Part shown: in pieces, positions 14,391 to 27,191 of the stretch
How positions within the stretch are numbered: the stretch's first letter is position 1
Layout of the letters: every line of letters starts with the position of its first letter
Origin: Ignavibacteriales bacterium
GTDB lineage: Bacteria; Bacteroidota; Ignavibacteria; UBA10030; UBA8401
Assembly: GCA_026390635.1 (NCBI GenBank)
Contig: JAPLFO010000149.1
Coordinates: forward strand, 1 to 64,000
Direction: 5' to 3'
Length of the DNA: 64,000 nt
Notes under the pieces: model-generated
What the model saw: the letters and a program-made list of their open reading frames with translations, nothing else
The model's database searches: none
Told to the model about the DNA's origin: nothing
Translations under genes and position numbers: made by a program

Positions 14391-14462
14391 TCCGCGGTAG
14401 CTCAATGGTAGAGCATGCGGCTGTTAACCGCAGGGTTGTAGGTTCGAGCCCTACCCGCGGAG
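14391..14462 (+). tRNA. tRNA-Asn (GTT anticodon)
   Basis: TCCGCGG-TAGCTCAATGGTAGAGCA-TGCGG-CTGTTAA-CCGCA-GGGTTGTAGGTTCGAGCCCTACCCGCGGAG; complete cloverleaf, anticodon GTT. Confidence 0.95.
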
Positions 14463-14467
14463 CAAAA

Positions 14468-14494
14468 ATCCCACCCCCATAGGGTGGGATTTTC
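14468..14494 (+). terminator. Terminator downstream of tRNA-Asn
   Basis: ATCCCACCCCCATAGGGTGGGATTTTCC. Confidence 0.75.
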
Positions 14495-14499
14495 CGTTT

Positions 14500-14772
14500 A
14501 TGGCCTACACGGTATATGTTTTGTATTCAGAGAAGTACGACCGATTATATATCGGCCAGTCGGAAGATTTGGAGCGCCGGCTTGCACAGCATTCGAGGGG
14601 AGAGATTTTTTCGACAAGACCGTATCTCCCGATGAAGCTCATCTATTCAGAGCGTGTTTTTTTTGCGTTCTGAGGCGATGAGGCGAGAGAAGCAACTGAA
14701 AACTCGCGGTGGCCGCCTGTGGATACGAACACATTGTATTATAGTAGAGCATGTCTGTCGTACGACAGATTA
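14500..14772 (+). pseudogene. GIY-YIG nuclease (UPF0213-like), frameshifted at a T8 tract
   Basis: Frame 1: MAYTVYVLYSEKYDRLYIGQSEDLERRLAQHSRGEIFSTRPYLPMKLIYSERVF(FAF*); the next frame continues ...LRSEAMRREKQLKTRGGRLWIRTH. The break is at T8 (14657-14664); losing one T restores the frame. Confidence 0.85.
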
Positions 14773-14893
14773 ACCGCAGGGTTGCAGGCTGAGGAGTCCA
14801 GACAAAATCTGGACAACGAAGTCCCGCGCTCTTTTTGCGGGATTCGAGCCCTATCGCAGCGAAGCAGAGATCCCGTTACGGGACCCGCGGAGC
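14742..14893 (+). repeat. tRNA-Asn 3'-half-like copy carrying three hairpin insertions (repeat copy A)
   Basis: TAGAGCATG[TCTGTCGTACGACAGA]TTAACCGCAGGGTTGCAGG[CTGAGGAGTCCAGACAAAATCTGGACAACGAAGTCCCGCGCTCTTTTTGCGGGA]TTCGAGCCCTA[TCGCAGCGAAGCAGAGATCCCGTTACGGGA]CCCGCGGAGC; unbracketed parts match the tRNA-Asn at 14391. Confidence 0.8.
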
Positions 14894-14905
14894 CATTGGA
14901 CATAG

Positions 14906-14931
14906 AACCTCGAAACTAACGTTTCGAGGTT
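14906..14931 (+). terminator. Terminator-like hairpin after repeat copy A
   Basis: AACCTCGAAAC-TAAC-GTTTCGAGGTT, perfect 11-bp stem. Confidence 0.6.
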
Positions 14932-18110: not shown

Positions 18111-18773
18111 TTTGGTTGATTATTTAAGTGGATTTATGATGTCAACTAAAATAATGAACTAAATGAAATCCAAAAAGGTTCCCGAAAAGACCAACGGACT
18201 ACGGCTCCTGACGGTTCGGATTCGAATAGGCCGTGAATACGTGCGAATTGTCTGCTGGAAAAGCAGGAGTCATAATGTAGCCAGGGGAGCTCGAGGGAAC
18301 AGAATCGAAGGCGCTACAACGCAGAGCTGCATATCTCAACAGGTCAGCCGCCTAAAGGAAACTGGCAGGGACTGCCTTGTCCGTCCCTTTCGTGCACCCC
18401 AAAATCCCTTTTCTTCCAAAAGGACTAACGTTGGAGTCCTCTTCCAGTATATTGGTGCAGACTCGGATCAGAGAACCGGGCATGAGAGAAAACGCAAACT
18501 TAGGAAGACCTATAATGATAGTAGAACAGTTCGAACGACGGTATAACCCCGATAGGCTCCGCGTGATTGCTTTTTCCATCCTGATCTTCTTCCACGCAGG
18601 GATGATCGCGACAAGACCGACAACCGCTCCTCCGGTAATTGATTTGTAGATACTCCATTATTGACTGAAGCCTCTGTTCTTTTTGTAACATTTCTGATCC
18701 ATGTACGACTAGCGTCGATAGATCTGGAAAGATCGGCTCACGTAGAAAAATCCCCGCTTTGATGTCGACAACT

Positions 18774-19005
18774 TTACTCCTGCGCAAGAGCCGGATAGTC
18801 AATTGTTATCCTCAGAAATTTTGCTTGGACTTCCGGCTGAATCAGACCGGCATCCCTCAATTCAATTACGTCTGATTGATGAAGGTTCAGATAGCAGGGT
18901 AATCGGCGGTTGTCGATGAATATTTTCTTTGCTCCCTTATACTTATTGGTGAAAACAACAGGAATTTCGAATAAAAGCTTGATAGAATCCTCGTGTTTGG
19001 CGCGG
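18774..19005 (-). pseudogene. Small degenerate ORF of unknown family, paralogue of a remnant near 26.68-26.87 kb
   Basis: Encodes ...LRAKHEDSIKLLFEIPVVFTNKYKGAKKIFIDNRRLPCYLNLHQSDVIELRDAGLIQPEVQAKFLRITIDYPALAQE*; the second copy reads LRAKHEESNFLIFEIPVFFARIHKGA*HIFID...KVRIDYPALA*. Confidence 0.45.
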
Positions 19006-19215
19006 AGCCAGAAAAACCCGATCGAGAGATCGGGTTTTTTGTTTAGTGCCTGTTGTAAGCTGACGAGTCCAGATGAAATCTGGACGACGAAGTCCCGCGC
19101 TCTTTTTGCGGGATATGAGTCCTTTCGTGACGAAGCGGAGACAAAGCCTCTGGTGATCTGTCCGAGGCTTTGCCATGTACGCATGGTTGTCCCGTATCAC
19201 GGGATCCGCAGGGCA
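18988..19215 (+). repeat. Structured tRNA-associated repeat, copy B
   Basis: CCTCGTGTTTGGCGCGGAGCCAGAAAAACCCGATCGAGAGATCGGGTTTTTTGTTTAGTGCCTGTTGTAAGCTGACGAGTCCAGATGAAATCTGGACGACGAAGTCCCGCGCTCTTTTTGCGGGAT...; shares the hairpin block with copies A and C. Confidence 0.75.
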
Positions 19216-19590
19216 AATCGCCTGTTTCAGAGTCCACTATTTTATCCTGCTCCCATTCAGCATTGCAGCCCCGCGTCACCCCAAGGAAATAAATGAAAAA
19301 TCTGTTCAACTTTTGTCCTGCATATATAGTCTATCCTTAAATATTCTATCATCGCTCAATAAGTATTGATCACCATCGGAATTTCGGGATATTTCTTTAT
19401 ATAATGGGTAGAACTATTGCTGCATCATAGCCAGTGCGATTCTTTTTCAATCGTTTATGCCCGGGACGCACATCCTAGAAAACAATTTCTTTGGCGATTT
19501 TCCGGATTTGCAGACAACGGCGGTATGAGTATTGCGGCAGTCTCAAAATATATTTTGTGAAATCTATCACGCATCGTCAAGGGACGAAAA

Positions 19591-26476: not shown

Positions 26477-26844
26477 TATACGTCTCAGTTTCAATCATCG
26501 GCCCGGATTAGAATCATCCGGGTTTTTCCATTTGCTCGGGTCACGCACTTTGCTGAGCATGCGCGGCTGACACCGAGCGATCTTGTCAAATCAACCCATG
26601 TGGCAAACTCTCCCCTATAAAATCTTTCTCTCTATATTTAGGCAAGCGCAGGATAATCTATTCTCACTTTTGGAATCTATATAGGCGCTTCCTGCTGGAT
26701 CAATCCGGCCTCGCGAAGCGCGATCATATCAGACTGGTCGAGATTCAAAAAATGGGGCAAACGGGTGCGATCGATGAAAATATGTTAGGCTCCCTTGTGA
26801 ATTCTTGCGAAAAAAACTGGGATTTCGAATATTAAAAAGTTAGA

Positions 26845-27055
26845 CTCCTCGTGTTTGGCGCGGAGCCAGAAAAACCCAGTCGAGAGATCGGTTTTTTTGT
26901 TTAGTGCTGGTTGTAGGCTGAGGCCTCACGATGAAATCGAGACGACGAAGTCCCGCAGTTTTTTTGCGGGATTCGATCCCTGTCGCAGCGAAGCGGAAAT
27001 CCCGTTACGGGACCCGTGGAGGCAAAAATCCCGATCAGCAATGATCGGGATTTTC
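26845..27055 (+). repeat. Structured tRNA-associated repeat, copy C, ending in a terminator
   Basis: CCTCGTGTTTGGCGCGGAGCCAGAAAAACCC...TTTAGTGCTGGTTGTAGGCTGAGGCCTCACGATGAAATCGAGACGACGAAGTCCCGCAGTTTTTTTGCGGGATTCGATCCCTGTCGCAGCGAAGCGGAAATCCCGTTACGGGACCCGTGGAGGCAAAAATCCCGATCAGCAATGATCGGGATTTTCC. Confidence 0.75.
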
Positions 27056-27191
27056 CGTAATAGAGAAATTCGAGCTAACAATCGATCTTTCCCCCCGGTA
27101 TAGTCTGCACTACGATGCAGTCACGCTCGGTTGATTCACATTATTCCACGCATAGGCAGGTTTTTTTTCAACTTCCGACGTTACAGCAGTA

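Follow-up and report, generated by a model that had tools for sequence, protein, structure and literature searches.

The window, by which we mean the whole 64,000-nt stretch of DNA analysed here (Ignavibacteriales bacterium, GenBank assembly GCA_026390635.1, contig JAPLFO010000149.1, positions 1-64,000 of the forward strand), contains what is probably a decayed copy belonging to a widespread family of minimal, mobile parasites of tRNA genes, with a homing-like mode of spread in which cleavage is inferred, and which restore the tRNA gene that they enter. Each element is one gene for a GIY-YIG nuclease of 80-110 residues, together with a copy of part of the host tRNA. The proposal is based on features that can be observed directly, namely the layout, a rule that governs which half of the tRNA is copied, fidelity to one tRNA isotype, inserts within the copied halves, empty sites and tandem arrays. 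The family is apparently undescribed. No paper on GIY-YIG proteins with tRNA halves or palindromes was found in the open-access literature, and those parts of the 2006 paper on the GIY-YIG superfamily that mention tRNA describe no such association.

The features of the window locus are listed in Table 1. The original prediction had described an intact tRNA-Asn followed by a terminator, then a GIY-YIG ORF of about 270 bp, and then a partial copy of the same tRNA with three inserts, one of them a perfect palindrome of 16 bp, and with a second terminator on its 3' side. The intact tRNA, the partial copy, the palindrome and the two terminator-like hairpins were all found as described. The GIY-YIG domain is also present, beginning at 14500, but the ORF is not intact.

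Table 1. Features of the tRNA-Asn locus and related sequences in the window.
Feature	Position	Strand	Basis
Intact tRNA-Asn (GTT), the restored host gene	14391-14463	+	ARAGORN; Rfam RF00005, 70.7 bits
Terminator-like hairpin 3' of the intact tRNA	14465-14493	+	12-bp perfect inverted repeat with T run
GIY-YIG nuclease gene, frameshifted	14500-14773	+	PF01541, E 2e-8; translations
tRNA-Asn 3' part (tRNA positions 15-73) with three inserts	14741-14893	+	Spliced alignment score 70, null maximum 35
Insert 1: perfect 16-bp palindrome TCTGTCGTACGACAGA, replacing six bases (CGGCTG) of the anticodon arm	14754-14769	+	
Insert 2: 54 nt with two hairpins, at the T-stem/T-loop junction (GG^TTCGA)	14789-14842	+	
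Insert 3: 30 nt in the 3' strand of the T-stem, with short hairpin TCCCGTTACGGGA	14853-14882	+	
Terminator-like hairpin 3' of the tRNA half	14906-14931	+	11-bp perfect inverted repeat
Decayed copy of the insert 2/T-arm/insert 3 module	19052-19141	+	84% identity
Second decayed copy of the module	26909-27024	+	84% identity

One surplus base in a run of eight T (14657-14664) disrupts the reading frame. The first frame ends after 57 codons at 14673, and the next frame continues as LRSEAMRREKQLKTRGGRLWIRTHCIIVEHVCRTTD to a stop codon at 14771-14773, inside the tRNA half. The region of the conserved Glu is lost through this frameshift, which implies that the window copy is probably a remnant, and thus an inactive member of the tRNA-gene element family.

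Within the tRNA half, four blocks that are nearly identical to tRNA positions 15-27, 34-52, 53-62 and 63-73 follow each other in order, at 14741-14753, 14770-14788, 14843-14852 and 14883-14893 respectively. The null for the spliced alignment was set by 214 tRNAs of the wrong isotype, while 107 shuffled tRNAs scored no more than 27. The Rfam covariance model for tRNA, which had been suggested as a check, does not recognise the half, as is expected for an interrupted half; the spliced alignment in contrast lies far above its null. The half is tRNA-derived, and is not a tRNA. Its region of 206 nt folds with a z-score of -4.8. All three inserts contain hairpins, in agreement with the prediction, but the overall fold of insert 3 is no more stable than that of shuffled sequences. 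An insert similar to insert 2 is found at the same T-stem/T-loop junction in the tRNA-Val half of a locus from another family (L007). A resemblance of insert 2 to a hammerhead ribozyme (CTGAGGAG...CGAAGTC) was considered, and has no support from Rfam even at E up to 1. More generally, Rfam found no intron or ribozyme in the window and six further loci, where the only matches above the gathering score are to tRNA and SRP RNA.

The module made up of insert 2, the T-arm and insert 3 has only the two further copies listed in Table 1, and none elsewhere in the 3.98-Mb genome. Ahead of each copy come a 3' end resembling that of tRNA-Asn (gcgcggagcc) and a terminator. The idea that the inserts are a high-copy genomic repeat could be ruled out, since insert 2 has three copies, all within the window. 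As a separate observation, positions 18640-19230 and 26560-27060 are two diverged copies of a unit of about 450 bp (77% mean column identity), which consists of an antisense ORF fragment (..KKIFIDNRRLPCYLNLHQSDVIELRDAGLIQPEVQAKF..), the tRNA-Asn-like 3' end, the terminator and the decayed insert module. The 136-residue ORF of this unit has no match in Pfam.

The association of such nuclease genes with tRNA genes was examined in two surveys. In the first, 60 order-level relatives were searched for all PF01541 genes (about 100), and 90 loci were inspected. The genes fall into a tRNA-linked clade, with the motif Y.VYIL.S....YIG.T..L..R...HN.G...ST....PW.LVY.E.F.TRSEA..RE..LKS, and a sister clade with the motifs ..KGW.RKKKEALM and ..KKWNR.WK..LIE. 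A tRNA gene lies within 330 bp of 42 of the 52 genes of the tRNA-linked clade, as against 2 of 47 sister-clade genes from the same genomes (Fisher p 1e-15). Both of these two, L033 and L067, are at tRNAs with tRNA halves, and look like members of the tRNA-linked clade that were misfiled by their motif. By chance, a tRNA would be this close at only about 0.7% of positions, given the 37 tRNAs in the genome of the window. The second survey was an independent scan of 85,000 species genomes with a hand-made family consensus, yielding 80 named genome loci. It found a tRNA or tmRNA within 500 bp at 68 loci, in every case on the same strand (68/68). The expectation that GIY-YIG homologues occur near tRNAs more often than by chance is therefore fulfilled in both surveys; in each, the distance is nearly always no more than about 150 bp, and the strand is always the same. 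Five of the remaining 12 loci lie at a contig end no more than 75 bp from the ORF, and at least four of the 12 show tRNA halves by eye. Hosts in the second survey include Bacteroidota, Ignavibacteriota, Patescibacteria, Omnitrophota, Planctomycetota, Elusimicrobiota, Cloacimonadota, WOR-1 and a bin named Woesearchaeota.

Two loci extend the picture beyond tRNA. In a Kazan-group genome, a family member lies 155 bp 3' of a tmRNA gene (L175). At L017, a GIY-YIG gene is directly 3' of an SRP RNA gene, and is followed by a duplicated part of the SRP RNA with extra sequence, which is the layout of the tRNA elements repeated in another structured RNA gene.

The protein itself is small. The element ORFs, of about 80-110 residues, consist of a GIY-YIG domain and a short tail only. 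Residues Y4, Y15, G17, R25 and E61, corresponding to the Tyr, YxG, Arg and Glu of GIY-YIG enzymes, are invariant in 14 clade members. On the basis of this conservation and of PF01541 matches above the cut-off, the sequences place the clade in the GIY-YIG nuclease superfamily. The nearest relatives in the PDB are the UPF0213 proteins (1zg2 and 1ywl; E 2e-16), followed by SLX1 and I-TevI. A domain of this size has no room for a known module that binds DNA sequence-specifically, which counts against the explanation that we favour. In the phylum, 93 of 149 genomes sampled match the GIY-YIG profile, with up to 21 matches per genome. In phages, only 18 distant relatives were found, at less than 60% identity, and no phage source is evident.

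To locate tRNA halves, each neighbouring tRNA was aligned, with splicing, to the opposite flank of the ORF. A partial copy was found in 82% of loci, compared to 0.5% (1/214) using a tRNA of another isotype and 0% using shuffled tRNAs. The part copied depends on the side. Where the intact tRNA is upstream of the nuclease gene, the downstream copy runs to the 3' end of the tRNA without having its 5' end; where the intact tRNA is downstream, the upstream copy starts at the 5' end and stops short of the 3' end. This half rule is obeyed in 79 of 88 loci (p about 1e-18 for either end), and is the trace expected of insertion into a tRNA gene followed by restoration of the tRNA. The nine loci that violate it, some of which have full-length or tandem copies, count against this explanation. 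The ORFs are fitted to their host tRNAs: when placed upstream, 31 of 52 stop inside the intact tRNA, mostly with UAG at positions 8-10 or at 21-24, and when placed downstream, 25 of 37 stop inside the half.

The proteins also remain faithful to an isotype. On a tree of 96 proteins, the identity of the host tRNA changes 32 times, compared to 56-67 times when labels are shuffled. For the loci with named phyla, isotype changes 17 times (24-28 when shuffled) and phylum also 17 times (19-22 when shuffled), implying that, across phyla, the protein lineage goes with the tRNA. Because the tree rests on few columns and leaves many forks open, it is usable only for counts of this kind.

These results bear on a passive origin, in which partial tandem duplications of tRNAs arise through slippage or illegitimate recombination and the nuclease genes merely persist there. 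Such duplications do exist without a nuclease. At L190, where there is no nuclease gene, an intact tRNA-Val has behind it a partial repeat of 69 bp that is made up of its upstream flank and its 3' part and has a double hairpin in the T-loop; the repeat is absent from close relatives. However, duplication alone would not produce the strict rules of strand and side, ORFs that end in stop codons of the tRNA, a protein clade that tracks isotype across phyla, or the near absence of the arrangement from sister GIY-YIG genes in the same genomes, and we regard this origin as very improbable.

Mobile parasites of tRNA genes should leave both occupied and empty sites, and a comparison of the two had been proposed as a check on the window locus. 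It succeeded elsewhere: within the order, two genomes (G048 and G080) have an element at the junction between tRNA-Val and thrS and about 25 have none there, and in G048 the sequence 3' of the half resembles that directly 3' of the intact tRNA in an empty relative (G042). For the tRNA-Asn of the window it did not, because relatives in the same family have the upstream gene with no tRNA beside it, and there is thus no empty-site counterpart.

Four loci have tandem arrays, with three to eight near-identical units, each of about 320-370 bp. In one, three 323-bp units, each a tRNA-Ser 5' half with hairpins plus an ORF, precede a single intact tRNA-Ser; in another, a single intact tRNA-Leu is followed by three 345-bp units, each an ORF, a tRNA-Leu 3' half and a tRNA terminator. 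The tRNA terminator is duplicated with each unit at L271, and the array in G202 has eight units. The arrays indicate that the repeating unit is the nuclease ORF plus half a tRNA. Together with the adjacency and the occupied and empty sites, they support the original suggestion of a very small endonuclease-driven element linked to tRNA, or its remnant, with mobility being an inference from comparative anatomy.

It could be argued instead that the half and the nuclease serve the host, as a module for regulation, tRNA sensing or defence that is driven by the tRNA promoter. Their placement behind this promoter and the overlap of ORF and tRNA would, by inference, permit co-expression, and the halves remain identical to the local tRNA. 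The patchy distribution, arrays, decayed copies, empty orthologous sites and presence at several isotypes in one genome nevertheless have a selfish appearance, and a host-serving role seems to us hardly credible.

The inserts are a consistent feature of the halves, which retain the tRNA sequence and are interrupted by inserts of defined length, often without loss of bases. Loops or junctions are the sites of 62 of the 80 inserts scored (odds ratio 2.9, p 2e-5). In 59, the fold is matched in stability by no more than 5% of shuffled sequences, a level that insert 3 of the window does not reach. The insert sequences are in part specific to a clade. More than 20 tRNA-Arg halves carry CCTGCCTGCCGGCAGGCAGG or close variants at the end of the D-loop (22|23); inserts in tRNA-Pro halves are 22-nt pairs of 11-nt hairpins and those in tRNA-Ser halves are 30-nt pairs of 15-nt hairpins. 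The palindrome of the tRNA-Arg halves was also seen away from tRNA. It was rejected as a high-copy repeat, since there are only 0-7 copies per genome. Some halves keep more than 40 uninterrupted bases, so that blocking of recombination cannot be the sole role of the inserts.

Sister clades have palindromes of their own. At fourteen loci, genes of the sister clade described above lie in intergenic regions that abound in REP-like palindromes, for example CTGAGCGAAGTCGAAGGG, and at three others the ORF, from a sister clade, is between inverted repeats (CCCGTGAGATAA...TTATCTCACGGG). One of these (L070) is a 293-bp unit with a single GIY-YIG ORF, and it splits a tyrosine-recombinase gene; when the flanks are joined in silico, the reading frame of this gene is whole again. 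The unit is possibly a single-gene insertion element, and is an independent sign of mobility in a sister clade.

These observations allow a different reading, which we consider possible but doubtful. The hairpins would be the real mobile part: the GIY-YIG protein would recognise hairpins, as SLX1-type enzymes do branched DNA, and move small palindromes into the loops of hairpin-forming DNA, much as RAYT proteins are thought to act on REP elements, with tRNA halves being tolerated landing pads. This fits with the precise placement and partial clade specificity of the inserts, with the tRNA-Arg palindrome at other sites, with the surroundings of the sister-clade genes, and with SLX1 among the structural relatives. 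The low copy number of the palindrome argues against it, and on its own it predicts neither the half rule nor the fidelity to isotype. A broader version, equally tentative, is that of a hitherto unrecognised superfamily of minimal mobile elements, whose single-domain GIY-YIG nuclease would act on DNA hairpins and not on long sequence sites, with palindromes as its active partners; one branch would live in tRNA genes, rebuild them and tag the displaced half with palindromes, and others would move palindromes or units bounded by inverted repeats.

Returning to a homing-like parasite of tRNA genes, which we prefer, we hypothesise that the nuclease breaks the tRNA gene of one isotype, and that repair from an occupied donor locus would insert the nuclease gene together with the portion of tRNA needed to make the tRNA whole. 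The displaced portion would be left on the far side, as a 3' part if the nuclease gene is downstream and a 5' part if it is upstream. It would then come to bear palindromic inserts, mainly in the D, anticodon and T loops, which probably destroy the nuclease site, the folding of the half, and recombination with the intact tRNA. Tandem arrays would result from further rounds at this intact gene. Both DNA cleavage and homing by repair are inferences, supported by the class of enzyme (relatives UPF0213, SLX1 and I-TevI, and the precedent of SegB discussed below), and the protective role of the hairpins is also inferred. Whether the palindromes protect from re-cutting, prevent recombination with the intact tRNA, or are moved by the nuclease remains an open question. 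Two points do not fit well: the presumed target would still be present in the intact tRNA next to the gene, which leaves self-immunity unexplained, and the window itself offers only a frameshifted nuclease at a locus without an empty counterpart.

Small GIY-YIG genes are common in this phylum, and we found no account of their role. The data assign many of them a habitat, as tRNA-gene parasites that spare the host gene. They would be natural units of about 300 bp that target tRNA genes, and a possible source of some dispersed palindromes, and they offer a suitable system for asking whether recognition of DNA structure is enough for a bare catalytic domain to home. Some odd annotations are explained as well, such as nucleases whose C-terminus is encoded by a tRNA gene, and partial tRNAs that contain inserts.

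Several known systems share part of this anatomy. Genomic islands that integrate into tRNA genes use tyrosine integrases, and are bounded by an intact tRNA on one side and by a second copy of its 3' part on the other. The layout is the same here, but the family units are only about 300-400 bp, with no tyrosine integrase and nothing but the GIY-YIG ORF between tRNA and half; moreover, 5' halves are as common as 3' halves, and the halves carry hairpins. RAYT proteins are HUH tyrosine transposases associated with flanking REPs. REP elements are short palindromes (PMC3733652), and the combination of short palindromes with a small nuclease is shared; the differences are that GIY-YIG is the only protein, that there is no HUH enzyme, and that the inserts are in tRNA halves. 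Group I introns with homing endonucleases occur in bacterial tRNA genes (PMC3984707), and are likewise a selfish nuclease gene inside a tRNA gene that is not lost. There, however, a ribozyme interrupts the gene, whereas here the tRNA is uninterrupted, having been rebuilt in DNA with no splicing. The UPF0213 proteins are the closest solved relatives by sequence, and for these neither a published function nor a link to tRNA was found.

Among known enzymes the closest is SegB, a free-standing GIY-YIG homing endonuclease of phage tRNA clusters (PMC13096335, PMC2988022), which in T4/T6 cleaves inside tRNA genes at the motif RAWTSGAAC and drives amplification of tRNA segments (PMC13096335). In our own reading, this motif resembles the reverse complement of the conserved T-arm GTTCGAATC. 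SegB lies between whole tRNAs in phages, in contrast to a single-domain protein in cellular chromosomes, with a displaced, hairpin-interrupted half and fidelity to isotype. Enzymes of its kind have an extra DNA-binding region beyond the catalytic domain, which is absent from the family ORFs; with this region missing and cleavage inferred, membership of the SegB kind is incomplete. The family does resemble a homing endonuclease gene, and what it has in common with SegB is a stand-alone GIY-YIG gene beside tRNA genes, local amplification akin to the tandem arrays, and a gene beside its target with both occupied and empty alleles, as in G048 and G080 compared to their roughly 25 relatives.
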